Below are positions 11,695-40,568 of a stretch of 64,000 nucleotides of DNA, one piece after another. Positions within the stretch are counted from its first letter, which is position 1; each line of letters starts with the position of its first letter. The notes under the pieces were generated by a model that was not told the origin of the DNA, did not search any database, and saw only the letters and a list, made by a program, of their open reading frames with translations. A program made the translations under genes and the position numbers. The stretch comes from Rhodobacteraceae bacterium Alg231-30 (GTDB lineage Bacteria; Pseudomonadota; Alphaproteobacteria; Rhodobacterales; Rhodobacteraceae): assembly GCA_900143615.1 (NCBI GenBank), contig FREU01000002.1, forward strand, positions 352,663 to 416,662, given 5' to 3'.

Positions 11695-12921
11695 ATGAAA
11701 AAGACCGAATCCAGCTTCCTTTCTTATGCCGACAGACGGTTCCGCTTAAGCGGCAAAGCTCTGATTGAAAATGGGCATCCGTATTTTGTTCCCACAGACA
11801 TGCTTGAGGATCAAAGCGACCAGTGGCCTAAAGGCTATCTATCGATGTCGCATTATGACTACCTCGGGTTAATGCATCACGAAGAGACAACTGGTGCTGC
11901 CAAAGTTGCTATCGACCGTCACGGCACAGGGGCCGGAGCGTCACGTCTGGTTGGCGGCGAAAGATGCGCGCATCGCATCTTTGAAAAAGATCTCGCTGAC
12001 TTTCTGGGCGTTGGTGGTGTTCTGTCGATCATCTCGGGCTACCTGACCAATGTCTCTGTCATTGGCCTGCTGCTTGGCCCAAAGGATCTGGTGATCGTAG
12101 ACGAGCTGGCGCACAACTCCATTATGGTTGGCGCACGCGGTGTCAAAGCTGAATTTGCGACCTACGCTCACAACAACCTTGAAGACCTGAACCGCATCCT
12201 GAACGAGCGCCGCGGAGAATTCTCACGCGTTTTGATCTGCACCGAAGGTCTGTTCTCGATGGACGGAGATATCACCGATCTTCCGCGCCTTCTGGAAATC
12301 AAGGATCAACACGATGCTTGGCTGTTGCTGGACGAAGCTCATTCTTATGGCGTTTTGGGACCAACTGGCCGCGGTTTGTGTGAACATTTTGGCGAAGACC
12401 CAAGCCGCGTGGAAATCGCCATTGGTACACTTTCCAAGAGCTTTGCGTCCTCCGGTGGCTTCATTGCCGCCAATGAGGAAGTGATCGAGTGGCTACGTTT
12501 CTGCTTGCCTGGATTTGTCTATTCAGTTGGCCTCTCGCCCTCAACCGTCGCCAGTGCCCACGCGGCCTTGGGCGTTTTGCGCCGCGAGCCCGACCGTGTC
12601 ACCCGCCTGCGAGGCAACTCGGTGCGCTTCCTTCAAAAAGCACGTGATTTGGGGCTGAACACCGGAACCGCCATCGGCGAAGCCGTTGTGCCAATCCTGT
12701 TTGATACCCCCGAAGAATGCGTCTTTGTTGCCGAAGCCCTGATGGAGCAAGGCATCTATGCCCCACCGGTTGTCCATATTGGTGTGCCCAAGGATTTGCC
12801 GCGCATTCGCTTCTTCATTTCCGCCACACACACCGAGGCTGAAATCGATCGCGTTCTGCAAGCTGTGCTTGAGGCCTCTGGAGCAGCACAGGCCCTCTCT
12901 AACAGGCTGAGTGCGGAATAA
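11695..12921 (+). CDS. Serine palmitoyltransferase-like alpha-oxoamine synthase
   Basis: A 408-residue PLP enzyme of the alpha-oxoamine synthase family (SPT, KBL, BioF, ALAS). Condensing an amino acid with an acyl-CoA/ACP is the committed step of sphingoid base synthesis. Visible catalytic features are the PLP lysine K248 in GTLSKSFASSGGF, the ring-nitrogen aspartate D213 with H216 in LLLDEAHSYGVLG, and the stacking histidine in DELAHNS. Family membership is certain. The SPT call rests on length, on the distinctive N-terminus and above all on the 3-ketodihydrosphingosine reductase three genes downstream. BioF or KBL is unlikely because no biotin or threonine genes accompany it; a cysteate-using variant cannot be excluded. 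It is the first gene of a tightly packed seven-gene operon. Confidence 0.8.
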   Translation: MKKTESSFLSYADRRFRLSGKALIENGHPYFVPTDMLEDQSDQWPKGYLSMSHYDYLGLMHHEETTGAAKVAIDRHGTGAGASRLVGGERCAHRIFEKDLADFLGVGGVLSIISGYLTNVSVIGLLLGPKDLVIVDELAHNSIMVGARGVKAEFATYAHNNLEDLNRILNERRGEFSRVLICTEGLFSMDGDITDLPRLLEIKDQHDAWLLLDEAHSYGVLGPTGRGLCEHFGEDPSRVEIAIGTLSKSFASSGGFIAANEEVIEWLRFCLPGFVYSVGLSPSTVASAHAALGVLRREPDRVTRLRGNSVRFLQKARDLGLNTGTAIGEAVVPILFDTPEECVFVAEALMEQGIYAPPVVHIGVPKDLPRIRFFISATHTEAEIDRVLQAVLEASGAAQALSNRLSAE

Positions 12922-12925
12922 AGTC

Positions 12926-13558
12926 ATGAGTGCGCTGCGGTTGATGAAGTTGCTGACCTCCGGTGCGCTTGCGCTGGTGCTGGCGCTTTTGTTCCCATCC
13001 CAGCACATGGCCAATGCCAAACCTATCTTGGACGTTGTGTCGACCCAAACATCCAAAACACTACCCAAGGCCAATCTGGATTTCCCACACCCCAGAGAAC
13101 AGCACCAAGTGTTTTTTGTGCAACGCACGACAAACGCGAATACCATTGTCTACGTGGCCCGGTTTGACGACAATGGAGACCTCAATCCCCAAAATCCAAT
13201 CGATGTCTATTGGCGTCGCTTTGCCGGTACGGGGAAAATCAAAGACTTACGCTGGTATGAGCGTACATTTGGCTTTGGCGTGCGCACCCGCCCCTTGCCC
13301 GATTCAGATGGGTATCGGGTCGCGATGAACGCGGTCAAGGACCACCCTTTGGAGCTGCGGCAAAGCGCTCCTTTTGAGGCTGCTTTGTGGACAACACAAA
13401 ACAACCGTGATTTTCGTCTCGTTTACGGGTATCTGGACATCGATGCATCCGGAATGATTCCAAAAGTCACCAGCATGCGCCTCTTTTCGACCGACCCGGA
13501 GACGGGCCTATACATAACACATAATATTGCCGTTTCCGGTGGAGCTTTCCGCGAATGA
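12926..13558 (+). CDS. DUF4833-type exported or anchored protein
   Basis: A 210-residue protein with an N-terminal signal/anchor (LTSGALALVLALLFPSQ). The compact domain contains ANTIVYVARFDDNGDLN, NPIDVYWRRFAGTGK and a late beta-rich part. I associate this pattern with DUF4833, but that is from memory and not certain. No catalytic motif is obvious. ATG 12926 lies five bases after the SPT stop; an in-frame GTG at 12911 would overlap the SPT gene. Its end overlaps the inositol-phosphate synthase start by four bases, so it is co-translated between the sphingoid and inositol steps. This position suggests a role in assembling or handling an inositol sphingolipid on the periplasmic side of the membrane. 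Confidence 0.6.
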   Translation: MSALRLMKLLTSGALALVLALLFPSQHMANAKPILDVVSTQTSKTLPKANLDFPHPREQHQVFFVQRTTNANTIVYVARFDDNGDLNPQNPIDVYWRRFAGTGKIKDLRWYERTFGFGVRTRPLPDSDGYRVAMNAVKDHPLELRQSAPFEAALWTTQNNRDFRLVYGYLDIDASGMIPKVTSMRLFSTDPETGLYITHNIAVSGGAFRE

Positions 13559-14676
13559 CCTTGAAGACAACTGAGACAAAGATCCGCACCGTTATTGTAG
13601 GTGTGGGCAACTGCGCTAGCTCGCTTATTCAAGGGGTGTCCTATTGCAGGGCGCTGGGAGAGGCAGCCGTAGGTGTGAGTTTTCCCGAACTGGCCGGTTA
13701 CACACCCGCAGATGTAGAACTTGTCGGCGGGTTTGATGTAGATGTGCGCAAGGTCGGCAAGACGCTGGGCGAAGCGGCCTTTGCCGCGCCCAACTGCACC
13801 GAACGCTTCCACACCGATCTGGCGGAACAAACCGGTCTGGTGTATCGCGGCCCCGATCTGGATGGCGTTGCTGCCCATATGCTGATCAAACCCGAAGACC
13901 GCAGCTTCCGCCTCTCGCCCGAAACGGCCATGACCAAAGCCGAGATCGTCGCCACACTCAAAGAACTCGACGCAGAGGTGATGATTATCTTCCTGCCCGT
14001 CGGGTCTCAGGATGCGGTTGAATTCTATGTTGAATGTGCGCTTGAGGCAGGCGTGGCCGTGGTCAACGGCATCCCCGTCTTTATTGCCTCCCACCCCGTT
14101 TGGGCAGAAAAATTCCGCGCGGCTGGCGTGCCAATTTTGGGCGACGACTTCAAAGCACAGCTTGGAGCTACGATTGTGCACCGCACCTTGGCAAATCTGG
14201 CCGAAATGCGCGGCGTCGAAGTGGACCGCACCTATCAGTTGAATGTGGGCGGCAACACCGACTTTCTCAACATGTCCGAAAACGAACGCCTCGCCAACAA
14301 ACGCGAAAGCAAAACCGAAGCCGTGCAGGCGGTGATGGAAGAACGTTTGGCCGAAAACGACATTCGCATTGGGCCATCAGACTACGTGCCGTGGCTCAAC
14401 GACCGCAAAGTCGCCTATGTCCGCCTCGAAGGGCGTCTCTTTGGCGGTGCGCGCACCAACATCGAAGTGCGTCTGGACGTTGAGGACAGCCCCAACGCCG
14501 CCGCCGAAGCGCTGGTCGCCATTCGACTGGCGCGCATTGCGCGTGACCGCGGCCTCTCTGGTCCGGTAGCAGAGGCCAGCGCCTTCCTGTTCAAACATCC
14601 GCCCGAACAGATTGAAGACACCGACGCCCATAACGTTGTGATGGACTTCGTCGCCGGAGACGGGACCCAAAGCTGA
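13555..14676 (+). CDS. ino1: myo-Inositol-1-phosphate synthase
   Basis: A 373-residue cytosolic NAD-dependent enzyme turning glucose 6-phosphate into 1D-myo-inositol 3-phosphate. It matches the short actinobacterial/bacterial Ino1 type. Key segments are VGVGNCASSLIQGVSY (Rossmann start), GDDFKAQLGATIVHRTLA, LNVGGNTDFLNM and GPSDYVPWLNDRKVAYVRLE, which line the NAD and substrate sites in characterised Ino1 proteins. Inositol synthesis is uncommon in proteobacteria, so a gene embedded in a sphingolipid operon points to an inositol-containing head group. Start and stop overlap both neighbours by one to four bases. Confidence 0.95.
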   Translation: MTLKTTETKIRTVIVGVGNCASSLIQGVSYCRALGEAAVGVSFPELAGYTPADVELVGGFDVDVRKVGKTLGEAAFAAPNCTERFHTDLAEQTGLVYRGPDLDGVAAHMLIKPEDRSFRLSPETAMTKAEIVATLKELDAEVMIIFLPVGSQDAVEFYVECALEAGVAVVNGIPVFIASHPVWAEKFRAAGVPILGDDFKAQLGATIVHRTLANLAEMRGVEVDRTYQLNVGGNTDFLNMSENERLANKRESKTEAVQAVMEERLAENDIRIGPSDYVPWLNDRKVAYVRLEGRLFGGARTNIEVRLDVEDSPNAAAEALVAIRLARIARDRGLSGPVAEASAFLFKHPPEQIEDTDAHNVVMDFVAGDGTQS

Positions 14677-15470
14677 TGCGTCCGGCCTTTGTCACTGGCG
14701 GCTCCAGCGGCATAGGACTGGCCGCGGCTCTCCAGTTGGCAAAACGAGGCCATGACATTGCGCTTTTTGCGCGCGACCCTCAGCGTCTGGCGCAAGCCCG
14801 CAAAGCCATCACCACCGCAGCGCCCGACGTGCGGGTGGCCGAATATGCCGTTGATGTCAGCGATCGCAAAGCCATCTATACGGCCGTGGATGAAGCCATT
14901 GCCGTTTTGGGCGCACCCGAAATGGCAATTGCCAGCGCGGGCATCGCCACACCCGGATTGTTCACCGATCAAGATATCGATCTGCACGAGCGCCACATGG
15001 CGATCAACTACTTTGGCACACTCTATTTCACCCACGCCGTAACGCCGCATATGCACCATGCAGGCGGCGGTCGACTTGGCCTCATCGCCTCAGGCGCCGC
15101 CTTTTTTGGCATCTATGGCTATGGCGCTTATGCGCCTTCCAAATTCGCCCTGCGCGCCCTTGCCGAAATTCTGAACCTCGAGCTGGCGGCGCAAGACATT
15201 TCCGTCACTCTAATCTATCCCCCCGACACACAGACTCCTCAACTGGAAGAAGAAAAGCGCACCAAACCCCAAGCCACCCAAGTGATCACCGAAGGCGGCG
15301 GCCTGTGGCAGGCCGAAGATATCGCCACACGTTTGCTTGATGGAATGGATCGTCAAAAACACGTTGTGACTCCCGGCTTCCAAATGTGGGCACTAAACAA
15401 CTTGACCAGCCTGCTGTCTCCGCTACTTCGGTGGCATCAAAAACGTATCATCCGCAAGTATCGCTCATGA
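14676..15470 (+). CDS. 3-Ketodihydrosphingosine reductase (KDSR/TSC10-like SDR)
   Basis: A 264-residue short-chain dehydrogenase. The cofactor loop TGGSSGIG is at residues 7-14, the NAG-equivalent ASAG at 86-89, and the catalytic residues are S139, Y152 and K156. The segment GIYGYGAYAPSKFALRALAE and above all YPPDTQTP (181-188) followed by EEEKRTKPQAT are hallmarks of eukaryotic 3-ketodihydrosphingosine reductases (human KDSR/FVT1, yeast Tsc10). It would reduce the product of the SPT-like enzyme to dihydrosphingosine. A C-terminal hydrophobic/basic tail (LLSPLLRWHQKRIIRK) fits membrane association. The ceramide reductase described from Caulobacter belongs to a different family, so this is a notable alternative. 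The start overlaps the ino1 stop (TGATG). Confidence 0.85.
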   Translation: MRPAFVTGGSSGIGLAAALQLAKRGHDIALFARDPQRLAQARKAITTAAPDVRVAEYAVDVSDRKAIYTAVDEAIAVLGAPEMAIASAGIATPGLFTDQDIDLHERHMAINYFGTLYFTHAVTPHMHHAGGGRLGLIASGAAFFGIYGYGAYAPSKFALRALAEILNLELAAQDISVTLIYPPDTQTPQLEEEKRTKPQATQVITEGGGLWQAEDIATRLLDGMDRQKHVVTPGFQMWALNNLTSLLSPLLRWHQKRIIRKYRS

Positions 15471-16354
15471 CCGTCCTCAACCTGTCGCACATGGCTGCCG
15501 CCGCCGCCGCGCTCATCGCTGCGGGCTACCTCCTCTTAGGCACGGTCGCGCTCATGCCTGCGCGCCGCGCGATTGGCCTAGAGCTGATCCGCACATTTTT
15601 CAGCGCAACTCTGATCATCGCCATTTTGGTTGTGCTCTTTCTTGCCGGACCTCTGGCAATGATCCCCGCCATGGCGTTACTGGGACTGCGCATTGGCTAT
15701 GAAGCTGCACATGTCCGAGTGGGAGCTGGTAGCACAACAAACGCCGTGGCCGTTCTAACCTCCGCGCTCGCTTTGGCCGCGATGCTTGTCCCGATGCTGG
15801 CCTTGGCAATGATTGGCTTTTGGCTGTTGTGCCTCTCGCGCATGGTTGCGGTGCCCCAAGGGGAACCATCGACGCCAATGAGCCTGCTTGATCTGCTGAT
15901 TTATCCGGTTCTGCCATTTGCCGTACTCGCCTATGGCGCAAGCAATCCTGAATTGGCCGCTATGATGCTAGCCGCCTACATTCTGGTTGAAGTCTTTGAC
16001 AGCTGTGCGCTGCTCTGCGGCAAACTCTTTGGCCGCACACCTGCCTTTCCCAACCTCAGCCCCCGCAAAACAATCGAAGGTCTGGCCGGCGGTGGTGCGT
16101 TTTTATGTCTCGCCGCCCTTCTGGCAGCCATGGGCCTATCGCTTCCTTTTGCAGGAACCGTTCTCACCGCGATTGCTGTTGGTGTTTTGGCAATCTGCGG
16201 CGACCTTGCCGCCTCGCGCCTTAAACGCAAAGGCGGCGTCAAAGATTTCCCCGTGGTGATGGCGCGCCAAGGTGGTGTTCTGGACAGTCTGGACAGCTGG
16301 ATCGCAGCTGGTGCGGGATTAACCGCCTATCATATTTTGACAGGCCTGCTTTGA
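15467..16354 (+). CDS. CDP-diacylglycerol synthase-like membrane protein
   Basis: A 295-residue protein of about eight helices in the CdsA family, which makes CDP-lipids from CTP and a lipid phosphate. The C-terminal signature is present but altered: S250-R-L-K253-R254, K259-D260, then RQGGVLDSLD where the usual form is HGG..DR..D. DSCALLCGKLFGR and NLSPRKTIEG match the family's upstream motif. I take the start at ATG 15467 (ATGA overlap with the SDR gene), not the longer frame. In this operon it could activate phosphatidic acid or a sphingolipid phosphate for head-group transfer. The changed active-site residues mean that activity and substrate are open. Confidence 0.7.
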   Translation: MTVLNLSHMAAAAAALIAAGYLLLGTVALMPARRAIGLELIRTFFSATLIIAILVVLFLAGPLAMIPAMALLGLRIGYEAAHVRVGAGSTTNAVAVLTSALALAAMLVPMLALAMIGFWLLCLSRMVAVPQGEPSTPMSLLDLLIYPVLPFAVLAYGASNPELAAMMLAAYILVEVFDSCALLCGKLFGRTPAFPNLSPRKTIEGLAGGGAFLCLAALLAAMGLSLPFAGTVLTAIAVGVLAICGDLAASRLKRKGGVKDFPVVMARQGGVLDSLDSWIAAGAGLTAYHILTGLL

Positions 16355-16394
16355 GTGGCTTGCGCAACACTCTGGGGCAAAGGACACTCCGCTC

Positions 16395-17525: not shown

Positions 17526-18655
17526 ATTTGCGGCGTCATACCGGCGTGGCTGTGCGCAGTATGGTGCGGGCCTATATATCCGCCATTGCATTTGTGATGT
17601 TCACACTGCTTGTCATCGCGCTCACCATTGATCTCGGCAATATGCTGGAAAACGTGCGTGCACGCGCCGCAGCGGAGAACGAACCCCTCTGGCGTGTGCT
17701 AATCCCCTATATGTCGTTTCGCGCGGTGGACATTATCACCCGCCTCTTGGGCATGGCCTGTCTGGCTGGCGCATTGGTGGCGACACTGCTGCGCCATCAA
17801 CGACTGGAAGACGTCGTGCTCTCAGCAGCAGGCGCCCCACCAACCCTGACGCTGAGCGCGCTTTTAATCGTCGGCGTGATCATAGGCGCGGTGCAATTCA
17901 GCTTTCAGAACTGGCTGCGCCCACTCGCGGTGGCAACGCAGACCGAAATGCAACTGGGGCGCTATGGCAAACGCTTTGGGCAGACCGAATTGGGAGAGCG
18001 CTGGTTTGTGTCTGACACCACAGCGCTGCGTGCCGCCGTGACACGCGGCCACTCTGCCGCGCTGACTGACATTCAACTCTTTGAGGGCATCAACACGGGA
18101 CAACTGGACCGTATCATTCTGGCCCATCGCGCAGAAGAGACCGAAACGCGCGGCGTTTGGCGACTAACCAATGCCACCATTTGGGGCGGCACAGGCGGCA
18201 ATCTCACCCGCACCGAAGACGAAATAGACGTTGCGCTTCCTTTGAACCGTGACCGGGTGCAATGGTATGGAGTGCAGGGGCATTACCTGCCCAACTCTGC
18301 GGCCAGACAGATTGCACAACTGGATGGAATTCATGCTGCACGCGACGCCGCCACTGTGCTGGCAGCGCGCAAAATGTCGTTCTTCCTCCCGGGAATATTT
18401 GCCCTCTTAGGCGTGAGCCTCGCGCGCACCGGCACTCGAGGTCGACGCCTCGCCCCGTTTCGCCTCTTGGCGTTTGGGGCAATGGGCTATGTGGTGCTGG
18501 TCTCAGTCAAAGTCTTCTGGGCCTTGGGTATGCACGGCAGCCTGCCCCCCACGTTGGCCGCAACCATCCCCATTGCAGCAGCATTGATCTTTGCTGTTCT
18601 GTTGCAACTCAGACAGGCAGGCTATCTGCGTCGTGCGCACCGATCAGCCAGATGA
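17522..18655 (+). CDS. LptF/LptG (YjgP/YjgQ) family permease, second copy
   Basis: A 377-residue partner of the preceding permease. The N-terminal helices are near residues 20-40, 60-85 and 105-130, followed by a periplasmic beta domain and three C-terminal helices (MSFFLPGIFALLGVSLA onward). The coupling segment is LLRHQRLEDVVLSAAGAPPT. The start ATG 17522 overlaps the previous stop (ATGA). A longer frame from 17480 lies inside the upstream gene and is not needed. No LptB, LptC or LptA copy is nearby, so the pair would have to borrow the cell's common components. The stop overlaps the convergent nucleotidyltransferase gene by 12 bases. Confidence 0.85.
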   Translation: MNLRRHTGVAVRSMVRAYISAIAFVMFTLLVIALTIDLGNMLENVRARAAAENEPLWRVLIPYMSFRAVDIITRLLGMACLAGALVATLLRHQRLEDVVLSAAGAPPTLTLSALLIVGVIIGAVQFSFQNWLRPLAVATQTEMQLGRYGKRFGQTELGERWFVSDTTALRAAVTRGHSAALTDIQLFEGINTGQLDRIILAHRAEETETRGVWRLTNATIWGGTGGNLTRTEDEIDVALPLNRDRVQWYGVQGHYLPNSAARQIAQLDGIHAARDAATVLAARKMSFFLPGIFALLGVSLARTGTRGRRLAPFRLLAFGAMGYVVLVSVKVFWALGMHGSLPPTLAATIPIAAALIFAVLLQLRQAGYLRRAHRSAR

Positions 18656-19396
18656 TCCTTCCCGTGCTTCAATCGCAGGCCAAACAACGCTCAGTGCACG
18701 CGCAAACATCGTCTCATCATCAATTTCCGTCCACGCCAAATCCTGCAGCAGAACCGCCTCGATGTCGGTACCTTCGGACAGCGCAATCACCGCGTCCTCA
18801 TAATCTGCCTTAGGATTTTGCGCTGCCACGCCCTGCCCTGCCGCCTTGAGAGCCCGCGTGTTTTCAGCGGAAAAGCAGGTGATCCCCACCAATTCTCCAA
18901 AATGAGTTTCTGGGCGCGCCCCAATTTTCTTGGACATGAAATCAAACGCAGGCACATCAGCGGCCCCATCGCGCACCCACACATACACTTCGTCGGTCGC
19001 GTTGGTCTCACCTGACAACACAATCCGCGTCGCGCCCGATTGCACCGGCGACAAAGCCCGCGCTTCGTAGATCACATCGGACTCCAACACCACAAGGTTG
19101 CCGTCCACCCCGTTCAGGCCTGTCAAAAGCGATTTTAAACTGCCTGTATGATCATAGTCGGGGTTGTGGATCAGCTCGACATCGGCGTCATCTGCGAATT
19201 CGGCTTCATACTGCTCATTCAAATGTCCGGTCACAATCCGAATGTGTTTCAAGCCATGTTTGCGTAGCAATTCAACAGACCGACGTACCAAGGGGACACC
19301 CTCAATCTTTAGCAATCCCTTGGGTGTCAACTCACCGCGTGGCCCCATTCGAACCCCCAGACCAGCGGCTAAAATAAGTGCACTCAAATCAGTCAT
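18644..19396 (-). CDS. NTP transferase, phosphocholine/inositol-phosphate cytidylyltransferase-like
   Basis: A 250-residue nucleotidyltransferase of the LicC/PntC/IPCT type. It has LILAAGLGVRM (residues 7-17) with P25-K26, then IVTGHLNEQYE, LIHNPDYDHTGSLKSL and LVVLESDVIYEARAL, which match cytidylyltransferases for small alcohol phosphates. The likely product is a CDP-alcohol. In this locus inositol-1-phosphate from Ino1 or the product of the FGGY kinase are candidate substrates; choline or aminoethylphosphonate are what closer-named relatives use. ATG 19396 is chosen over an upstream TTG at 19411. It is the only minus-strand gene between two plus-strand blocks and is divergent from a CDP-alcohol phosphatidyltransferase, its natural partner. 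Confidence 0.78.
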   Translation of the reverse strand: MTDLSALILAAGLGVRMGPRGELTPKGLLKIEGVPLVRRSVELLRKHGLKHIRIVTGHLNEQYEAEFADDADVELIHNPDYDHTGSLKSLLTGLNGVDGNLVVLESDVIYEARALSPVQSGATRIVLSGETNATDEVYVWVRDGAADVPAFDFMSKKIGARPETHFGELVGITCFSAENTRALKAAGQGVAAQNPKADYEDAVIALSEGTDIEAVLLQDLAWTEIDDETMFARALSVVWPAIEAREGSSG

Positions 19397-19484
19397 GTTT
19401 TCCGCATCCAAATTGTGTTTAAACGTGACGCGGACCCTAGGAGAGGCCTAAGGGAACCGCAACATACGAGACAGCGGATAGGGC

Positions 19485-20162: not shown

Positions 20163-21271
20163 TGAAGATATTGCAACTCAGTCCCTATTCCATGTCCCGA
20201 CCCGGTGGCGTGCAGACCCATATTCGCTCTCTGAGCACTTGGTTGGAAAACCACGGGCACGAGGTCCGCATTATCGCTCCTCCCGGGGACACCGACCTTT
20301 CCAACCTCAAAACGATGGGACAATGCCGCAGCATCACCATGCACGGCACAGGCTTTGAGATAACCCGCGCCAAAAGAACCGAGCTGCGCCACTGCGTGGA
20401 AGAACTGCGCCATTGGGGTGCAGACATCGCCCATTTACACACACCTTGGACGCCGATGCTGCCATGGCAAATTTGGCGCAAACTGGGTGTTCCGGGGGTC
20501 GCCACGTTTCATGCCACTCTGCCCAAATCTCACCGTTTTGACCCGATGACATGGGCATTGCAGCGCAGCGCGCATTATTACAATCGCCGCCTCAAAGGCG
20601 TCGTGGTGCCCTCAGACAGCGCTTTGGCTCAGTGGAAAGCGATTTCTGCCGCGCCTTTACCCCGCGTTTTACCACCGGCCATCGATCTGTCCGCGTGGCG
20701 CGCCGCAAAAGAAATCACACCAAAATCAGACGGCTTTGATGTGGTCTATTTGGGCCGCCTTGAAGAACGCAAAGGCGTGGCGGTCCTGCTGCAAGCCTGG
20801 TCAGAGATCCAAGCCGCGCGCCCCGATGCCAAGCTGACAATCGCAGGCAGCGGCACAGAAGAGCCGCACCTGCGCCAAATGGTCCAAGACCTCGCCCTTT
20901 CTGGTGTGGCCTTCCGCCCGGCGCCCACCGATGCAGAGGCCCCCGCGCTGGTTGCGCAGGCCGACATTTTGGCAGCTCCGGCGTTGCACGGCGAAAGCTT
21001 TGGCTTGATCCTCATCGAAGCCATGGCCGCAGGCACCCTTCCTGTTGCTGCCGCCAATAGCGGATTTTCTACCGTGATGACCGGACCGGGGACTGAATTA
21101 TTGGTGCCACCTGGTGACACCGCCGCCCTCGCGCGCAAACTTTTGGATCTGGCAACACATCCCGCAAAAATGACCCGCCTCCGCCGATGGGCCAAGGGGC
21201 ACGCCGAAGTCTACGACGTGCGCACGCTCGGCGCGGTTTACGAAAGATGGTTTAAAAAAGCCCTTCAATAA
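20162..21271 (+). CDS. GT4 glycosyltransferase, PimA-like
   Basis: A 369-residue GT-B fold enzyme. The N-terminal PYSMSRPGGVQTHI with HGHEVRIIAPPGD matches phosphatidylinositol mannosyltransferase PimA and related GT4 enzymes. The C-terminal half has VVYLGRLEERKGV, LTIAGSGTEE and the donor-site motif HGESFGLILIEAMAAG. PimA adds mannose to phosphatidylinositol on the cytoplasmic leaflet. Given the neighbouring phosphatidyltransferase and ino1, this enzyme probably adds the first sugar to an inositol lipid. The sugar donor is unknown. Translation is coupled to the preceding gene. Confidence 0.88.
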   Translation: MKILQLSPYSMSRPGGVQTHIRSLSTWLENHGHEVRIIAPPGDTDLSNLKTMGQCRSITMHGTGFEITRAKRTELRHCVEELRHWGADIAHLHTPWTPMLPWQIWRKLGVPGVATFHATLPKSHRFDPMTWALQRSAHYYNRRLKGVVVPSDSALAQWKAISAAPLPRVLPPAIDLSAWRAAKEITPKSDGFDVVYLGRLEERKGVAVLLQAWSEIQAARPDAKLTIAGSGTEEPHLRQMVQDLALSGVAFRPAPTDAEAPALVAQADILAAPALHGESFGLILIEAMAAGTLPVAAANSGFSTVMTGPGTELLVPPGDTAALARKLLDLATHPAKMTRLRRWAKGHAEVYDVRTLGAVYERWFKKALQ

Positions 21272-21365
21272 AAGGGACTTGCCAAAGGTTACTCCAGATT
21301 GCCATTGCACTTCGGCAAACATTGTAATTCATTGCTTTCGAATATTTTTCCTTAAGGAACGACCC

Positions 21366-22922
21366 GTGTTAAAAGGCGATCTGGTCATTTCAGCCGACTT
21401 CGGCACCTCAGCTGTCAAAGTTGGTGTGGTGGACGGTGATCTCAACATTCTGGCGCGCGTCACACAAAGCTATCCAATCGCCTTGGGACCAGGCGGCTTT
21501 GCCGAACAAAACCCCGAGGACTGGTGGGGCGCACTGGCGCATGCGCTGGCAGATTTGCGGCGCGACGTCCCGGACCTGCGTCACCGCGCCGGCGCTATGA
21601 CCTTTAGCAGCCAGATCTGCGGCCTGATTTGCACCGATGACAAGGGCATCCCACTGCGTCCCTGTATGACATGGTTGGACAAACGCAGCGCAGATCTCAG
21701 CCGTGAACTGATTGGCGGCAAACCCAATGTCCACGGCTACCAAATTGTTAAACTGATGCGCTGGCTGCGACTGGCCAATGGCGCTCCTGCCAAAAACGGA
21801 ATGGATCCGACCGCGAAAATTCTTTGGGTGAAAGAAAACGAACCGGACATTTTTCGCCAAACCCGCTGGCTTTGTGATGTGCGCGACTGGCTTGTACACC
21901 GCGCCACCAACAAGATGACCTCTTGTCCTGAGAGTGCCAATGTCACTTGGGTCATGGACACCCGTCCGGGTCGCGAGGGCTGGTCTGAACCTTTGGCCGC
22001 CATGACAGGCATTCCTATCAACAAACTCCCCCCCATCGTGCAAGGTGAAGACGTGGTTGGCACGCTCACGCCTCAGGCCGCCGCCGAACTGGGTTTGGAT
22101 GATTCCCTCTATGTCTTGGGCGGAACCTCTGATGTCACCGCCGCCGCATTGGGTTCAGGCGAAGTCGAAGACGGCGCACTTCATATTAGTGTTGCCACCA
22201 GCGCGTGGATTGCAGGTTTCTTTCCCGACCGCCGCCTCAGCGTGCCCAGCTCTTACGCGACCATTACCTCGGGGCTGAATTTTCGCCCCATGTTGGTGGC
22301 CAGTCAGGAAAACGCGGGCTCTGCTATGGAATGGGCCGTCAAGATTTCTGGTGGTCCGACGCAGGGCGAAGCGGTTGCAGCCGCCTATGGCGACATGGGT
22401 GATCCACAAAAGGACGACCCGTTTTTTCTTCCGTGGTTGGCGGGCGAGCGGGTTCCGGTTGACAACGACAGCCTGCGCGGCACCTTTCATGGGCTCAGCC
22501 TGCACCACGATCCCAAGGCGCTGCGACGCGCGGCAGTCGAAGGCGTCGCCCTCAACCTACGCTGGGCGATGTCCAAAGTCAGCCGCGAGCGGGGCGCGCG
22601 CACCGAGGGACCTCTGTCCATTGTTGGCGGCGCGGCAGCAAATGCAACGTTTTCGCAAACTTTGGCAAATGCGCTCAATCGCGAAGTCCGCGTGGGCGAG
22701 GCCCGCCATGCAGGCATGTTGGGTACAGCAACGCTTGCGGCGCCAATTATGGGCTGGGCGGACAGCGCAGCCGCCGCCGCTGCACGTCTAAAAACCCGCA
22801 CCACCGCCAGCTATGCGCCCCAACCTGCACAGGTGGAAGCGCTTGCCATACGCGCCGCCAAACTGGATCGCATTCGCAAAATCGTACTGAAAAGTTACAA
22901 AGACGAAACCGCCACCACCTAA
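21366..22922 (+). CDS. FGGY family carbohydrate kinase
   Basis: A 518-residue cytosolic sugar/polyol kinase of the xylulokinase-like FGGY family. ISADFGTSAVKVGVVD starts the ATPase fold, EDWWGAL and MTWLDKRSADLSREL follow, and GGAAANATFSQTLANAL forms the second nucleotide-binding segment. Length is normal. I take the GTG at 21366 (AAGGA eight bases upstream); an ORF from 21279 adds an unlikely tail. The substrate cannot be inferred. Within this lipid block it might phosphorylate inositol or another polyol for the cytidylyltransferase. It is unusual to find such a kinase between a lipid glycosyltransferase and a phosphatidyltransferase. Confidence 0.85.
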   Translation: MLKGDLVISADFGTSAVKVGVVDGDLNILARVTQSYPIALGPGGFAEQNPEDWWGALAHALADLRRDVPDLRHRAGAMTFSSQICGLICTDDKGIPLRPCMTWLDKRSADLSRELIGGKPNVHGYQIVKLMRWLRLANGAPAKNGMDPTAKILWVKENEPDIFRQTRWLCDVRDWLVHRATNKMTSCPESANVTWVMDTRPGREGWSEPLAAMTGIPINKLPPIVQGEDVVGTLTPQAAAELGLDDSLYVLGGTSDVTAAALGSGEVEDGALHISVATSAWIAGFFPDRRLSVPSSYATITSGLNFRPMLVASQENAGSAMEWAVKISGGPTQGEAVAAAYGDMGDPQKDDPFFLPWLAGERVPVDNDSLRGTFHGLSLHHDPKALRRAAVEGVALNLRWAMSKVSRERGARTEGPLSIVGGAAANATFSQTLANALNREVRVGEARHAGMLGTATLAAPIMGWADSAAAAAARLKTRTTASYAPQPAQVEALAIRAAKLDRIRKIVLKSYKDETATT

Positions 22923-22943
22923 TGGCCGACTAGGGGACCACCA

Positions 22944-23555
22944 ATGATTGATGGCTTGATCAAAGATAAAATCGACCCGCTTTGGGAGGCCATGTCGACC
23001 CCTTTGGTGCGTGCCAAACTGTCGCCAAATCAGGTGACCATCGCGGGGCTGGTTTTGGTAGTTCTGGTTTCGCTTGCCTATCTTTGGCACGAATCGCCCG
23101 TTGTATATGGCCTGACACTGGCGCTGGCCTTTGCCTTTGATGCCCTTGACGGAGCCGTAGCGCGTCGGCGCAATATGCGCAGCAAGTCAGGCGGCTATCT
23201 CGACGCCATGGTGGATCGCTACCAAGAGCTCGCCGTGTTGGCCACATTGGCCTATGTACATGATCTCTGGGCGCTCGCGATGGCCTGTTTTGCGGGCAGC
23301 GTGATCACCTCTTACGCCAAAGCACGCACCGCGCTGGAAATCCCCACCGATAACGAAAACTGGCCCGATTTTTTTGAACGTATGGAACGTGTGATCTATA
23401 TCTGCGTCATGTTGATCTTGGCCGGAATTCTGGGCGCGTGGATGGTCACTCTGGGCCTTGCAGGATTTGCTCTGCTGTCGCATTTCACAGCTCTCCAACG
23501 CGCGCATCGTGCATGGGGTATGCTAAAAGCGGTTGATGATCAGGACCGCCAATAG
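22944..23555 (+). CDS. CDP-alcohol phosphatidyltransferase, second copy
   Basis: A 203-residue membrane enzyme with the complete signature DALDGAVAR...G..D...D (D66, D69, G70, A73, R74, G83, D87, D91). The N-terminal LSPNQVTIAGL and the KSGGYLDAMVDRYQE segment resemble archaeal/actinobacterial phosphatidylinositol-phosphate synthases, which join inositol-1-phosphate to a CDP-lipid. It is therefore the better candidate of the two copies for using the ino1 product. It ends the second plus-strand block, and its stop overlaps the convergent membrane-protein gene by 16 bases. Confidence 0.88.
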   Translation: MIDGLIKDKIDPLWEAMSTPLVRAKLSPNQVTIAGLVLVVLVSLAYLWHESPVVYGLTLALAFAFDALDGAVARRRNMRSKSGGYLDAMVDRYQELAVLATLAYVHDLWALAMACFAGSVITSYAKARTALEIPTDNENWPDFFERMERVIYICVMLILAGILGAWMVTLGLAGFALLSHFTALQRAHRAWGMLKAVDDQDRQ

Positions 23556-24328
23556 CTCCGCATAGCTGTCAGGCAATCCGGCGCATAGGCCAGCACGTAA
23601 AACAGAAACGATGACAACAGCAGCGGTTCCACCGATACATAGCCTGTGTAAAGCGGCTTGCTTAGTGCACCCAAATCAAAGTGCTTGATGACAAACAGCC
23701 CCAGATAGGCCACCCCAAGCGAAATAGGCACCCACACATAGCGTTTGCGAAACTGTGCAAACTTCGGTGAAAACACCAAGCCTTCCGGCGGCATCTTGGC
23801 ATAAGACCGCGACAGGATTTCGCCAAAAACCACAACAAAGGCCTGACTGAAGAAGAACAAATAGCTTCCCGTCATATGCATGTCGTTGTGATCGGGGAAC
23901 CGGTAATGGCTTAGCATAACCATTCCAACGCAGGCCAAGCCCTGCAAACCGCAGACCAAGCCTGTCAAAACCGTGATGCGCATTGCATCCCGTTTCGGCG
24001 GACGCCCCACCAATAGGAATTCTTTCAGCGCCATTCCGGCCAATAGCAAAACCCCCACAAAAAGCACCGGCGCGCAAATCGCCATCCACTCGGCAAATGG
24101 CTCGCCGACACGCGGATCAGACAGCGCCCGACTGATCGTAGGGGGGCGTTTGGCCATATACTCGGGGTGCCATTTGATGAAATCCCAACGCGCCGTGTAG
24201 ATGAGATAGTTGACCACTACGACCACAAATGTGGTGCATGCCAGCGACACCGCCAAGGCCCGAGCAACTGTGCGCGACGGCGCATGCGTCGTCTGCTGGT
24301 CAGATAGGTTCTCCGTTACCGCACTCAT
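23540..24328 (-). CDS. Frag1/DRAM/Sfk1-like six-helix membrane protein
   Basis: A 262-residue integral membrane protein with about six helices. RPPTISRALSDPRVGEPFAE (residues 61-80) and HNDMHMTGSYLFFFSQ (147-162) fit the pattern I know from the Frag1/DRAM/Sfk1 family, including eukaryotic PGAP2 (GPI-anchor lipid remodelling) and Sfk1 (phosphoinositide homeostasis). The family call is moderately sure; a bacterial function is not established. Its start overlaps the ABC exporter stop (ATGA), so it is co-translated with a lipid-type transporter. The link of a PGAP2/Sfk1-type fold with inositol-lipid genes is suggestive but unproven. Confidence 0.6.
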   Translation of the reverse strand: MSAVTENLSDQQTTHAPSRTVARALAVSLACTTFVVVVVNYLIYTARWDFIKWHPEYMAKRPPTISRALSDPRVGEPFAEWMAICAPVLFVGVLLLAGMALKEFLLVGRPPKRDAMRITVLTGLVCGLQGLACVGMVMLSHYRFPDHNDMHMTGSYLFFFSQAFVVVFGEILSRSYAKMPPEGLVFSPKFAQFRKRYVWVPISLGVAYLGLFVIKHFDLGALSKPLYTGYVSVEPLLLSSFLFYVLAYAPDCLTAMRSYWRS

Positions 24329-26055
24329 GTCAGACTAGCCCGCGTTTTTTGGTCAAACTGTTCGTCCGAAACAATACGTCCACCTTCCATTTTGACCAAG
24401 CGATCGCATTTATGGAATTGATGATCATCATGTGTAACCGCCAGAACCAGACGCCCAGAGGCCGAAAGCTCAGGCACCAGAACATCATAGAAGAACGCCC
24501 GATTGGCGGGGTCTTGATCGGCGGCAAATTCATCCAGCACAATGATCGGACGTTGCTCTGCCAGAGCAACTGCCAGGGCCAGACGCCGACTTTGTCCGGC
24601 TGACAAAGAGGTGGTTGAGAACCGTCCATCCAGCATGCTGACCCGCTGGGATAGCCCAAGCTGCTCAATTCGGCGTTCCAGCTCGACCAACTCGTCCTGC
24701 GGCATCCCAAAGGCGCGGTCAAACAAGTGATATCCTGAAAAAACCCCCGAGAATAGCTCACGATACGGGCCGGTGGATTCGTCATCAAGCGAGACACCAT
24801 CCAGCAGGATTTCACCCGCGCCCGGATGTCGAAGACCAGTGATCAGCGACAGTAACGTGGTCTTTCCTGACCCGTTGCCACCGCAAATAAAGACGGTTTC
24901 GCCGGGCTGAAACGTCAAATCAATTGGCCCCAAATGAAACGCCTCTGCGTCCGGCCGATCCAGTTCCCTAACATCCGCTTCCACCGCGGCCAGCTTGATC
25001 TCTTTAAAGCCCTGCAGCGGCGCACGATCAGCCAAAAGCACCTGACTTTGTGCATTTGCCAGCGATTTCTCGACACTTTGGATCTTATAGTACGCGTTTT
25101 CCGCACGGCTAAATCGCGGCATCAGACCAAACAGCGTTTCCACCGGCCCGTTCACCAAAAAGATCACTGTCAGCACCTGAAACATCGTTGTGGTGTCACC
25201 GCCCTGTAAAACAGGAACGGCGATCACAACAAAGCACAGCAACAGGATAACCGCAGACTGCCCGACACCTGTGCTGGCCGAGAACAATCGCTCTGCGGCC
25301 ATCTTGCTCTCGACTTGGTCCCTGATCACGCGAATGGTCTCGCCTTCCAAGGCTTCGCGACGCGATCCGCGCAGTCGCAACTCTTTCCAGCCCCCCAGCA
25401 TGTCGCCAACACGGTCGCAATATTCGTCAAACAACTGCGAAGATCTAAAACCAAAGCGCCGTGCGGGCCGGTCCAACAACACATAGCCAAGCATCCCAAC
25501 CACAATAGCAATCAAGGCGACAACTCCGGTCCACCACGACACATAAAACAGATAGGGAATGGCAAACATCAAAACGATCACCGCGCCCGCGGCATCCACG
25601 ATATTCATCACCGATCCCGACAGCACAGAGACCTCATTGGTCATCGCCGAATAGACCTGCCCGTGTTTGTTGGAAATCAGAAAATCGATATTGGCCCGCA
25701 ACAGCAGGCGCGACATGCGTTCGCGCAAAGCGCGGTTGATGGTTGTAATCATCCGAAACGCCCGCAGACGTTGAAAATACCCTGTAATCAACAAGGTTCC
25801 GGCACAGGCCAGCAACAAAGCGACCGACCAACCGATCCCCTGATCTGCCGTCCGCGCAGTTTCATTGATCGCAAAAATCATCCCCGAGCGGCTAAAGCTG
25901 GTCATCAGCGTCAAGATCAGGATCGGATCACGCGCCACACCACCGGTGGCCATCAGGAATTGCAAAACCGTCTTGCGCCGTTGCACAAGCGCGCTGAACC
26001 GGCCGTCGTCCGGCTCGGGAATATCTTTAAATTCAATCGTCACTGTCTGTCTCAT
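24325..26055 (-). CDS. ABC exporter half-transporter (SyrD/PvdE-like)
   Basis: A 576-residue fusion of a six-helix membrane domain (residues about 40-320) and an ATPase domain. It has Walker A GGNGSGKTT (392-400), signature LSAGQ, Walker B PIIVLDEFAAD and the switch histidine in AVTHDD. The signature and layout match the SyrD/PvdE cyclic-peptide exporter group, but no nonribosomal peptide genes are nearby. In this locus a flippase moving a glycosylated lipid or lipid-linked sugar across the inner membrane is more plausible; that is inference. It would function as a homodimer. GAGGG sits directly before the ATG. It is the second gene of a three-gene minus operon. Confidence 0.85.
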   Translation of the reverse strand: MRQTVTIEFKDIPEPDDGRFSALVQRRKTVLQFLMATGGVARDPILILTLMTSFSRSGMIFAINETARTADQGIGWSVALLLACAGTLLITGYFQRLRAFRMITTINRALRERMSRLLLRANIDFLISNKHGQVYSAMTNEVSVLSGSVMNIVDAAGAVIVLMFAIPYLFYVSWWTGVVALIAIVVGMLGYVLLDRPARRFGFRSSQLFDEYCDRVGDMLGGWKELRLRGSRREALEGETIRVIRDQVESKMAAERLFSASTGVGQSAVILLLCFVVIAVPVLQGGDTTTMFQVLTVIFLVNGPVETLFGLMPRFSRAENAYYKIQSVEKSLANAQSQVLLADRAPLQGFKEIKLAAVEADVRELDRPDAEAFHLGPIDLTFQPGETVFICGGNGSGKTTLLSLITGLRHPGAGEILLDGVSLDDESTGPYRELFSGVFSGYHLFDRAFGMPQDELVELERRIEQLGLSQRVSMLDGRFSTTSLSAGQSRRLALAVALAEQRPIIVLDEFAADQDPANRAFFYDVLVPELSASGRLVLAVTHDDHQFHKCDRLVKMEGGRIVSDEQFDQKTRASLT

Positions 26056-26088
26056 CCCTCACGCGCGGGACGCTAGCGAGTTTGGTTG

Positions 26089-27066
26089 TCATATGCCAGC
26101 AGCCTTTGCATCTGTGCGCCCCGCTTTTGGCCCGCCCACGCGCCAAAGATGCGCGTAATACCGTATCGATTTGGAGTTATTGCGATCCTCGGGCCGACCA
26201 TCACCCTTATTCAACCGCGCCAGCGCAGTCGTGCGGAAATGCTGTTTATCCGCCTTGGGCAGACAGCTCAGCCCGCGACAGGGGATCGAGTGTTTTGCCA
26301 CCTGACACAGAGCGCTTGTGCGCACATCATCAGTTAAAAACGCAAACTTCGGCGTGTCTGAAAAATCCGCCAATGCTTCCAAATCGTAGAATCGGGGACG
26401 CACAGCATATCCAAAAACGCCCAAAACGACGTCAATTTCACGCGGTTTGCGCAGACGTGTTCCCCGCAACGGCGCGGGCGGTTGCTTAAAGAAATTCGAG
26501 CGAATGGTTGTGCGCCGATCGATGAGATCCTGCGGCACAATCCAACCCGCCATCGTCAACGCCACATCAGGTGTCTTTTCAGCGCGACGCTCAAAGGTCT
26601 GAATAAAATCATGTGGATAGATGCGATCATCGTCCACCACGACAACCAGCTGATCCGCCTCGGCCGCCAATAACGTCGGGATCACCTTAGTTGCTGGCCC
26701 CCAATCGCGCCCGCGCCGCACCTCTACACTCGTCAACTTGAGCAGCCGCGCAGGCACCTCATATGCGACGTCCTCGCGCAATGAAAAATCCGGAACGTTC
26801 AACACAATCTTGCGCGGCGGCCGGGCCTGATCCATCAGGCTTTTCAGAGCCGTATCAACAAACTCGATCCGACTTGGAATTGTGGTCAGCGAGACCACGA
26901 CATCTGCCTTCTCGGCCAGCTGCCAGCGTGCATCCTGCTGTGCCAATGTCCGGCGCGACAGCTTCCATTCTCGACACACGTCGCGCACATACCGCTCGCC
27001 CTCAAAAATGAAATGCACCCAATACGCCAGCGCCAGAACGACGCCAATTGCTGCAATGACTCCCAC
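26089..27066 (-). CDS. Membrane-anchored GT-A glycosyltransferase
   Basis: A 325-residue protein with an N-terminal membrane helix (VIAAIGVVLALAYWVHFIF). A GT-A fold follows: VVVSLTTIPSRIEFVDTALK, IVLNVP, DWGPATKVIP and the metal/nucleotide motif VVVVDDDRIYP (DDD 145-147). Its overall pattern resembles a bacterial family of putative glycosyltransferases with SLTTIPxR. The GTG start has AAGGGG at good spacing. It heads the minus operon with the ABC exporter and Frag1-like gene and faces the GINT1-like gene. It probably adds a sugar to the inositol lipid or an intermediate; donor and acceptor are unknown. Confidence 0.75.
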   Translation of the reverse strand: MGVIAAIGVVLALAYWVHFIFEGERYVRDVCREWKLSRRTLAQQDARWQLAEKADVVVSLTTIPSRIEFVDTALKSLMDQARPPRKIVLNVPDFSLREDVAYEVPARLLKLTSVEVRRGRDWGPATKVIPTLLAAEADQLVVVVDDDRIYPHDFIQTFERRAEKTPDVALTMAGWIVPQDLIDRRTTIRSNFFKQPPAPLRGTRLRKPREIDVVLGVFGYAVRPRFYDLEALADFSDTPKFAFLTDDVRTSALCQVAKHSIPCRGLSCLPKADKQHFRTTALARLNKGDGRPEDRNNSKSIRYYAHLWRVGGPKAGRTDAKAAGI

Positions 27067-27174
27067 GTGTTGCCCCTTGGCTAATTATTCTTTCGCAAGC
27101 TTGGAATCTCTGTGGCCTTTCCAAATCCGCGACGCTTAAATGCGTTTACCTGAAATAGACCGTTGAGACCCTCC

Positions 27175-28824
27175 ATGCCAAGCCGCAATGATGCAATTTA
27201 TGTCACAGGGGCGGACGCTCGGTTTGCCCGCAATCTGCATCAATTACTGCGTGCCGTGTTGCGCCATCGATGGAACGTTGACGCACATTGGGTAATCTTT
27301 GACCTTGGAATGACCGCGGACCAACGCCGTGATCTGATGCAATCATTTCCATGGATCGAAGTGCGCACTCTGGATCTGGAAAAACTGCCGCCCCATTACG
27401 TACCGTCCTATGGGGCCTACGCATGGAAGGCCCATATTGTCTGGGAGGTCGCAGAACACGCCAAAGGACCTGTCATCTGGATGGACAGTGCCAATCTGCC
27501 ACGTGGTTCCGCCCAGCCTATGCTCGACTGGATTCACACTCACGGATTTTACATGCTGCATGGCCGCTCGCCCCTTTTGGCGCGATGTGATCGCCGAATG
27601 CTAGAGCGTTTAGGTGTGCCGCGCTGGCTTTGGGGCTCACGTGAGTTGGCCTCAGGTCTTGTTGGGGCAGATATGGCGCGCCCCGAGATGCGCAAGCTCT
27701 TGCAGGATTGGGCAACGCTGTCTGATGACGAAGACATCATCCGCCCCAAACCCGATACCTTTCGCGGGCATCGCAACGATCAATCTGTGCTGAATGCTTT
27801 GGTGCAACCATTGGCCGCGCTCGGCCACATCAAGCTGCCCAATCTAGACATCGACATTTCCGCCCCCGATCCGGTTAAATTCCTCTCTACAAGAAACAAA
27901 CTTAAACCAACGACGCCGCTGTGGGCCGATCCCCTCATGCGGGCCCGCTATGGCCTGATCAAAGCGGTTGATCAACTGGCCATTCGTACCAACAAGCTGA
28001 TCAACCGCCGCTGGTTTCCCAGCCGATGGCGAGGTGAGTATTTCGAGCTGCGCACCACCAAGCGTGGGCAGCCCGATCAAACAGTCATTCCCTGCCCCGC
28101 CGGCCATTACTACGCTGACCCGTTCTTGTGGGACCACGATGGCCAGCCTTGGGTTTTCTTTGCGGATTTTCACTACTTTTCGATGCGCGGCACAATCGCC
28201 GCAATGCCGCTGGACGGGAAGCAAAAGGCCGTTCGGGTTCTCGATCCCGGCGTACACGCTTCTTTTCCATTTCTGTTTCGCCACGCGGGTAAACTCTGGA
28301 TGATGCCGGAGACCTGCAAAAACGGACGGCTCGATCTCTACGAATGCACCCGCTTTCCCGACCAATGGCACCGCCATCGCACCGTCTTTGAAGACGTCAA
28401 TACAGTGGACACCGTGGTATTTAAACATAACGGGCTTTGGTGGTTGATGACTTCAATGAAATCCCCTCAGGCGGGCGGGCCTCAACGTTATCTGGCAATC
28501 TATTACAGCGATGATCCAGTAGACGGCATCTGGCATCCCCATCCTGTCAATGTAGAGGGGCGCGAGATCACGTCCGCACATGGCACCGGCCGCAATGCGG
28601 GCGCCGTATTCGAGCATGACGGCCAGCTGATCCGCTGCGTACAATCCAGCCGCGACTATTACAGTCAGGGGATGGAATTGCGGGCTATGACCCTGACGCG
28701 CGAAAGCTTTACAGAGCGAAAGATCGCAACGCCCGATGATTTAACAATGATAGATGCCGAGGGCGTGCATCATGTCTCGCAACTGGGCGACAGGATCGTT
28801 TGGGACCGTCGAACACGCCACTAA
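27175..28824 (+). CDS. Two-domain glycosyltransferase with GINT1-N-like propeller
   Basis: A 549-residue protein. Residues 1-250 look like a GT-A/GT8-type catalytic domain (GAYAWKAHIVWEVAEHAKGP and VIWMDSANLPRG with a DxAN metal-like motif, later FRGHRNDQSVLNAL). Residues about 275-549 form a five-bladed propeller-like domain with YYADPFLWDHDGQPWVFFAD, SFPFLFRHAGKLWMMPETC, LYECTRFPDQW and VDTVVFKHNGLWWLMTS. This second part matches what I know of the N-terminal domain of plant glucosamine inositolphosphorylceramide transferase GINT1. The inferred job is glycosylation of an inositol phosphoceramide. The open frame starts at TTG 27163; ATG 27175 is taken, though without a strong Shine-Dalgarno. 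It is divergent from the GT-A gene. Confidence 0.75.
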   Translation: MPSRNDAIYVTGADARFARNLHQLLRAVLRHRWNVDAHWVIFDLGMTADQRRDLMQSFPWIEVRTLDLEKLPPHYVPSYGAYAWKAHIVWEVAEHAKGPVIWMDSANLPRGSAQPMLDWIHTHGFYMLHGRSPLLARCDRRMLERLGVPRWLWGSRELASGLVGADMARPEMRKLLQDWATLSDDEDIIRPKPDTFRGHRNDQSVLNALVQPLAALGHIKLPNLDIDISAPDPVKFLSTRNKLKPTTPLWADPLMRARYGLIKAVDQLAIRTNKLINRRWFPSRWRGEYFELRTTKRGQPDQTVIPCPAGHYYADPFLWDHDGQPWVFFADFHYFSMRGTIAAMPLDGKQKAVRVLDPGVHASFPFLFRHAGKLWMMPETCKNGRLDLYECTRFPDQWHRHRTVFEDVNTVDTVVFKHNGLWWLMTSMKSPQAGGPQRYLAIYYSDDPVDGIWHPHPVNVEGREITSAHGTGRNAGAVFEHDGQLIRCVQSSRDYYSQGMELRAMTLTRESFTERKIATPDDLTMIDAEGVHHVSQLGDRIVWDRRTRH

Positions 28825-37831: not shown

Positions 37832-37957
37832 TTAGTCGAGCCTCACAGAACTACCGGAATTCACATCCTGCGAAGAGAATCCCGCATTATGCAAACCATA
37901 GTAGGCGGCAATTGAAATCGCGACAGTTGCCACACAGGCCAAAAGGAATGTTCTCAT
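37832..37957 (-). CDS. 41-residue single-helix membrane peptide
   Basis: ATG at 37957 overlaps the stop of the WD40/cytochrome gene (TAATG) and the TAA at 37832 is four bases before the regulator start. This packing argues for a real gene. The product begins MRTFLLACVATVAISIAAYY, one helix or signal anchor, and ends SGSSVRLD. No known family is recognised with confidence. I have the impression that similar small proteins with an RLD end accompany alphaproteobacterial formate dehydrogenases, but this is not verified. It could stabilise the membrane-bound dehydrogenase or cytochrome. Confidence 0.65.
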   Translation of the reverse strand: MRTFLLACVATVAISIAAYYGLHNAGFSSQDVNSGSSVRLD

Positions 37958-40553: not shown

Positions 40554-40568
40554 CTCAACAGCCGGTGC

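Follow-up and report, generated by a model that had tools for sequence, protein, structure and literature searches.

The locus at positions 11695-28824 of the window (the whole 64-kb stretch of contig FREU01000002.1 of Rhodobacteraceae bacterium Alg231-30) raises the question of which product its 16 tightly packed genes, identified from the list of open reading frames (ORFs) and from Pfam/NCBIfam models, make together. The locus is real and conserved, and very probably constitutes a glycosyl-inositol-phospholipid pathway. It seems rather likely, judging by the gene families, that the product is a glycosylated inositol phospholipid on a sphingoid-type backbone, exported to the outer membrane.

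The genes match the Pfam families Aminotran_1_2, Inos-1-P_synth, adh_short, CTP_transf_1, LptF_LptG (twice), NTP_transf_3, CDP-OH_P_transf (twice), Glycos_transf_1, ABC_tran, and GINT1_N. Each family named in an earlier note on this DNA is present, the GT-A enzyme just weakly, and three genes (DUF4833, FGGY carbohydrate kinase, and Frag1) are added to that set. The gene order is as follows.

11695..12921, plus strand: alpha-oxoamine synthase (AOS) resembling serine palmitoyltransferase (SPT); best PDB match Sphingobacterium-type SPT (222.9 bits), in the tree outside BioF/Kbl
12911..13558, plus strand: DUF4833 protein, predicted secreted; signal-like N-terminus, likely start 12926
13555..14676, plus strand: Ino1, myo-inositol-1-phosphate synthase; PF01658 121.9 bits, single match in the genome
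14676..15470, plus strand: KDSR-like short-chain dehydrogenase (SDR); TSC10 best PDB match
15467..16354, plus strand: CdsA2, second CTP transferase with the changed signature ARQGGVLDSLD; PF01148 115.5 bits
16395..17525, plus strand: LptF2; PF03739 59.7 bits
17522..18655, plus strand: LptG2; PF03739 91.6 bits, ORF from 17480, ATG at 17522 preferred
18644..19411, minus strand: NTPt, NTP transferase, accessory; PDB entry 6pd1 96.6 bits, probably a cytidylyltransferase for a phosphonate- or phosphocholine-like group
19485..20162, plus strand: CDPa, CDP-alcohol phosphotransferase, accessory; PF01066 35.6 bits, without the acceptor motifs of phosphatidylinositol phosphate (PIP) synthases
20162..21271, plus strand: GT4, glycosyltransferase of putative PimA type; PimA 132 bits, next other chain 55.9
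21279..22922, plus strand: FGGY carbohydrate kinase; PF00370/PF02782, start uncertain
22944..23555, plus strand: CDPb, CDP-alcohol phosphotransferase of PIP-synthase type; PIP-synthase residues present
23540..24328, minus strand: Frag1-family membrane protein; PF10277 34.7 bits, cut-off 30.3
24325..26055, minus strand: ABC exporter of the cyclic-peptide-export subfamily; TIGR01194 306.7 bits, cut-off 286.2
26089..27066, minus strand: GT2-like glycosyltransferase, accessory; PF13641 20.9 bits, below the cut-off of 27
27163..28824, plus strand: GINT1_N protein, accessory; PF24793 108.1 bits, weak DUF1647 match at the N-terminus

Conservation was assessed in a sample of 60 genomes (the window's own, 24 congeners of a genus taken to be Shimia, in line with the order Rhodobacterales guessed in the earlier note, 11 from other genera of the family, and 24 of the class). 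At E<=1e-60, the SPT-like protein is found in the own genome, 23 of the 24 congeners, none of the 11 other family genera, and two of the 24 class genomes (37-38% identity). As to the co-occurrence of the families, for which the earlier note proposed a synteny search, Ino1 and the SPT-like gene occupy the identical set of 24/25 Shimia genomes (own included), with Ino1 in one of the 11 other family members, and module A (SPT, DUF4833, Ino1, SDR, CdsA2, LptF2, LptG2) is contiguous in 23/23 congeners, in one of which the contig ends within it. Module B (GT4, FGGY, CDPb, Frag1, ABC) follows module A in 20/23 congeners, in some with accessory genes between; in the other three it is inverted and lies ~13-19 kb off on the same contig. 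Neighbours among the first seven genes overlap or abut, as in an operon, e.g., the ATG of CdsA2 at 15467 overlaps the SDR stop. A second CdsA is present in 6/6, and a second LptF/LptG pair in 8/8, SPT-bearing Shimia genomes tested; G005, the congener that lacks SPT and Ino1, has a single CdsA, one LptF/LptG pair, and no CDP-alcohol match of CDPb strength. The parts of the locus are gained and lost together, and since gene order and co-retention hold across genomes, chance clustering is argued against.

Divergent versions of the locus occur in other Rhodobacterales, in Stappia, and in one alphaproteobacterium of another family (G174). A scan of genome contigs with CDPb found 100 relatives, for which 79 loci were listed; filtering these for CDPb at >45% identity together with FGGY left 44 loci, namely 22 congeners already counted, G174, and 21 new ones that include Salinihabitans, Oceanicola, Pseudooceanicola, Stappia, and further Shimia. 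Within 10-kb flanks, these 44 loci contain GT4 (43), LptF, LptG, and CdsA (38 each), SDR and ABC (36 each), Frag1 (32), Ino1 (30), NTPt (24), DUF4833 (21), SPT (18), CDPa (17), GT2-like (9), and GINT (7), many of the absences arising because the flank or contig ends there. SPT was searched for in 30 of the 79 listed records, of which 25 have the locus (four of them congeners); 21 of the 25 carry an SPT ortholog (57-74% identity), and for 18 of these 21 the coordinates place it in the fetched stretch or no more than ~3 kb away, provided that the contig is the same. The remaining four of the 25 are L143, L150, L176, and L177. The FGGY kinase adjoins CDPb in Shimia, G174, and the other locus-bearing records examined. 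G174 has SPT (44%), SDR (45%), Ino1 (50%), CDPb (52%), FGGY (41%), and GT4 (36%), together with CdsA, a second CDP-alcohol transferase, Frag1, and a GT2-like protein. In the class as a whole, Ino1 is present in 36/385 genomes; it stands near an SPT-like match (E<=1e-55) only in the own genome, one congener, and G174, some of the genomes being fragmented.

The inositol-lipid part is the firmest of the proposed reading. Ino1 would supply inositol-1-phosphate, and CDPb would move it onto a CDP-lipid in the fashion of a PIP synthase, a step that its residues support well. PIP synthases require R155 and R195, absolutely conserved in the group, while S132 and K135 have roles (PMC4634129, in excerpt). 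CDPb has counterparts of all four residues (alignment to 6h53 and motif test); each is kept in 59-60/64 loci (matches of at least 150 residues), and the seven differing loci are remote (28-34% identity) or truncated matches. With these acceptor residues and Ino1 in the locus, the inositol phospholipid claimed in the earlier note is supported by sequence. A soluble inositol product, di-myo-inositol-phosphate or a thiol, with no lipid involved, would agree with two further matches: in NCBIfam, Ino1 is matched by the mycothiol_INO1 model only, below its cut-off, and the best PDB match of CDPb is 4mnd, a bifunctional IPCT/DIPPS. Against it stand the lipid PIP-synthase residues of CDPb and the presence of CdsA2, LptF/LptG, and the PimA-type GT4, which make such a product very improbable. 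The other CDP-alcohol phosphotransferase, CDPa, contains the catalytic motif and, in the motif test, none of the acceptor motifs SYxKAR, ERxER, and LQR; hence, it was rejected as a PIP synthase.

If CDPb makes an inositol lipid phosphate, a PgpA-type phosphatase would strip the extra phosphate; its gene is in the locus of Stappia-type relatives and is presumed to be unlinked in Shimia. PgpA copies, recognised by similarity to two Pfam-checked copies, are present in 11/44 filtered loci, one of which (L177) also has a ManC-type protein. BT_1525 of Bacteroides thetaiotaomicron, annotated as PgpA, is a PIP phosphatase according to the part of PMC9246714 available. PgpA also adjoins CDPb in 14/14 loci in which CDPb occurs and FGGY does not (13 Mesorhizobium, 1 Pseudaminobacter). 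As a separate observation, in these records (L158-L160, L163, L164, L166-L171, L174, L175, L179; CDPb 57-59%) the rest of the locus is absent, and in L158 CDPb and PgpA come after FGGY-kinase, class II aldolase, and TIM-barrel genes. GT4 would then attach a hexose. Its assignment as a PimA-type glycosyltransferase, proposed before, is likewise backed by the sequence comparison, i.e., by its wide lead in the PDB search (132 bits with PimA vs. 55.9), and mannose is the likely sugar, because GT4 is PimA-like and L177 encodes the ManC-type protein.

CdsA2 is expected to form the CDP-activated lipid. Its signature ARQGGVLDSLD differs from PGHGGLLDRFD of the other copy in the genome and from the canonical KD...PGHGG..DR.D; the change speaks against a canonical CdsA and would fit another lipid substrate. 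The CdsA-like CC_1161 of Caulobacter is needed for ceramide phosphoglycerate, and a second LptC/F/G set there has been proposed as the phosphosphingolipid carrier (both from excerpts of PMC11324152). We consider, tentatively, that CdsA2 may make a CDP-sphingolipid from a sphingoid or ceramide phosphate, onto which CDPb would add inositol phosphate directly. Marine Roseobacters and their relatives would then have a route to inositol phosphosphingolipid that needs no Aur1-type head-group exchange and continues with PimA-type glycosylation and export over an Lpt line of its own.

For export, the ABC exporter would flip the lipid, and LptF2/LptG2 may take it onward. The latter are members of the LptF_LptG family and form a divergent second pair, so that the LptF/LptG claim of the earlier note is borne out, with the co-retention with SPT described above. 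The second pair was not found in G005, four other-genus relatives, or G174; in G174, OEP, ABC, FtsX, and HlyD genes adjoin SPT. An outer-membrane product fits, since LptF2/LptG2 are co-retained with SPT and this trans-envelope-type set adjoins SPT in G174. The DUF4833 protein, with its signal-like N-terminus, gives a confident, mostly beta predicted model whose fold has no clear match.

A sphingoid backbone is probable. The SPT-like enzyme would condense an acyl thioester with an amino acid, presumably serine, and the SDR would reduce the 3-keto base (the KDSR step). In the PDB, the SPT-like enzyme scores highest with Sphingobacterium-type SPT, followed by Kbl (191.4 bits), Sphingomonas-type SPT (186), and BioF (183.9), whereas for a BioF-like protein of the class (L083) BioF scores above SPT. 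The synthase tree (57 rows; Sphingobacterium SPT as the sole bacterial SPT of known function, ALAS and Caulobacter-/Sphingomonas-type SPT not included) has a supported split. On one side are BioF, Kbl, and Sphingobacterium SPT; on the other are G368, the enzymes of the locus, a set of synthases linked to polyketide synthases (PKS), plant LCB2a, and G174, the last two being long branches of unsure placement. BioF was rejected as an identity for the SPT-like enzyme by its place outside BioF/Kbl and by its score with the BioF model TIGR00858 (316.9 bits, cut-off 426). The SDR has TSC10 as its best PDB match both as a protein (77 bits, next 75.5, ambiguous when taken by itself) and as a profile, for which TSC10 is the only match listed at E<=1e-35 (5.8e-40, 140.6 bits), in agreement with the KDSR-like reductase suggested earlier. 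SDR and TSC10 have in common the motif TKPxxT, present in 23/23 congener loci.

Several observations weigh against this sphingoid assignment. TIGR00858 is, even below its cut-off, the best NCBIfam model for the SPT-like enzyme (five BioF-like class proteins reach 421-445 bits). In the tree, the enzyme sits with PKS-/capsule-linked synthases, apart from Sphingobacterium SPT. The profile search does not show by how much TSC10 leads other SDRs, matches weaker than 1e-35 being unlisted, and the TKP motif is altered in the SDR of G174 and L177. Proteobacterial SPT genes co-occur with acyl carrier protein (ACP) and acyl-ACP synthetase (ACS) genes, according to excerpts of PMC9386255; the 16 locus genes, to which the search was confined, include neither of the two, nor a gene for ceramide synthase, ceramide kinase, or an Aur1-type/inositol phosphoceramide synthase, and bCerS and CerR genes of the Caulobacter type are not evident among them either. 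Lastly, two loci, L143 and L150, keep Ino1, CdsA2, LptF/LptG, GT4, FGGY, and CDPb and lack SPT and SDR. The sphingoid backbone claimed in the earlier note is supported with reservation: the enzyme lies outside BioF/Kbl, whereas a place in BioF was a refuting condition of that note, but in the tree it does not group with Sphingobacterium SPT; a ceramide, which that note also envisaged, is not demonstrated, there being no N-acyltransferase among the locus genes.

The place of the enzyme in the tree bears on the idea that the SPT-like enzyme and the SDR together provide the lipid anchor of a surface polysaccharide. This may be the case in rhizobial PKS-AOS-SDR capsule loci, which we take to be of the rkpA-G-H type; there, an SDR comes after an AOS from the clade of the locus enzyme. 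Three examined synthases of the PKS-linked group adjoin ORFs of ~2,500 aa (PKS-like); the best match of the SPT-like protein in the plasmid collection, from Acidisoma (50%), belongs to a capsule locus that has an SDR too; a string of a large ORF, AOS, and SDR stands beside capsule genes on pSymB of S. meliloti; and in G368 a GINT1_N gene is found ~11 kb from the AOS. Yet the 16 genes include no PKS, capsule-type exporter, or polymerase, the TKPxxT motif of the KDSR-like SDR is absent from the SDR of the pSymB string, and LptF/LptG are a lipid route, so that we regard a polysaccharide anchor as improbable. Two side observations concern such synthases elsewhere. The capsule locus on the Acidisoma plasmid (L120) holds SDR, AOS, and a gene annotated as sterol desaturase, possibly for a hydroxylated sphingoid-like capsule anchor. 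In a Verrucomicrobia metagenome-assembled genome (L200:3621-9713), a 1319-aa ORF combines a PKS-like start with an SPT-like domain, and genes for a GNAT-family protein and a KDSR-like SDR (46%) are adjacent.

Judging by L143 and L150, the head-group genes may be able to stand alone; the two loci also bear on whether the product is instead a mannosylated phosphatidylinositol on diacylglycerol, with the SPT-like enzyme and SDR making a separate amino lipid and only the export route common to both. The locus of L177 (Aestuariivirgaceae) points the same way: it contains SDR, Ino1, CdsA, PgpA, GT4, FGGY, CDPb, ManC, and LptF/LptG, and its genome has no SPT-like match >34%. In L176, the locus is cut by its contig and the genome has a 45% SPT match. 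Opposed to this are the signature of CdsA2, unlike that of the canonical copy, and the fact that SPT, SDR, Ino1, and CdsA2 form a single overlapping gene string, both in the window and in 23/23 congener loci; on balance, a diacylglycerol product appears fairly unlikely, and the reading we retain is an inositol phospholipid that carries sugar and has a sphingoid-type backbone.

The accessory genes, together with Stealth proteins (found in both places tested, G174 and L128), may vary the head group between species. Among the 24 Shimia loci (own included), NTPt occurs in 10, full-length CDPa in 4, GT2-like in 8, and GINT in 7 (one in two pieces). The cytidylyltransferase-like assignment of NTPt made earlier probably holds at the level of the family but not for the inositol-phosphate type, rejected by the weak score with 2xme (IPCT, 27.9 bits) against 6pd1 (96.6 bits; presumably a phosphonate-type cytidylyltransferase) and 1jyk (46.8). 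GINT1_N, previously read as a sign of inositol-phosphoceramide glycosylation, is a weak clue to the product, and that reading is not supported: of the 22 class genomes that carry it, 20 are without Ino1 and two have it. Genes for phosphoenolpyruvate (PEP) mutase near the locus suggest phosphonate decoration in some relatives. Such a gene lies ~3.4 kb from GINT in G022 (L054:15-2311), followed by a gene for a thiamine diphosphate-dependent enzyme in a phosphonate-synthesis-like arrangement; in G174 (C1:26296-27132) it adjoins an NTPt-like gene, ~9 kb from SPT. In G006 it is on a contig other than that of the locus, and in the window genome PEP mutase was not found at E<=1e-40.

Glycosyl-inositol lipids with a sphingolipid-like backbone are familiar from plants and fungi, less so from bacteria. 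The plant glycosyl inositol phosphoceramides (GINT1) resemble the proposed product in the GINT1_N domain and, if the reading is right, in the inositol, sphingoid, and hexose parts; however, GINT1_N is accessory in Shimia, and most of the class genomes that have it lack Ino1. The actinobacterial pathway of phosphatidylinositol and its mannosides has Ino1, PIP-synthase residues, and a PimA-like GT4 in common with the locus, and ManC with one related locus, whereas the Shimia locus is in a Gram-negative host and has sphingoid-type backbone genes and Lpt export.

Inositol lipids are termed relatively rare in bacteria in the available part of PMC9246714. The cluster BT_1522-1526 of B. thetaiotaomicron described there is similar in Ino1 (MIPS), PIP synthase, and the sphingolipid context; its PgpA-type BT_1525 has a counterpart in the loci of Stappia-type relatives, and its Aur1-type BT_1522 none seen among the 16 locus genes, unlinked copies not having been searched. 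Compared with the cluster as there described, the locus adds CdsA2, the PimA-like GT4, the FGGY kinase, and LptF2/LptG2, with SPT and the KDSR-like gene in the same string. The same source reports for the alphaproteobacterium Novosphingobium acidiphilum a lipid that agrees with inositol phosphodihydroceramide in retention time and in the fragments of its head group; that organism belongs to the Sphingomonadales, and, as far as the available text goes, the route and genes are unknown and no glycosylation is reported. The region CC_1168-CC_1152 of Caulobacter crescentus (PMC11324152, PMC12275187, both in excerpt) is similar in SPT, the CdsA-like CC_1161, a COG1213-type cytidylyltransferase (CpgD), and a second LptC/F/G; ACP, ACS, CerS, CerR, a ceramide kinase, and the phosphoglycerate head group are described for Caulobacter alone, while the locus has Ino1, PIP synthase, the PimA-like GT4, and the KDSR-like reductase.

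No description of such a pathway in Rhodobacterales was found among the open-access literature matches listed. Conserved in cultured Shimia and Stappia strains, the locus makes bacterial glycosyl-inositol lipids testable, and with them the possible CDP-sphingolipid route and phosphosphingolipid export via a second LptF/LptG pair.

The flanks look unrelated to the locus, with parts of an oligopeptide-type ABC transporter, an FAD oxidase, and an aldehyde dehydrogenase. Elsewhere in the window (37957-44069), a WD40-repeat gene adjoins cytochrome b561 and molybdopterin oxidoreductase genes.

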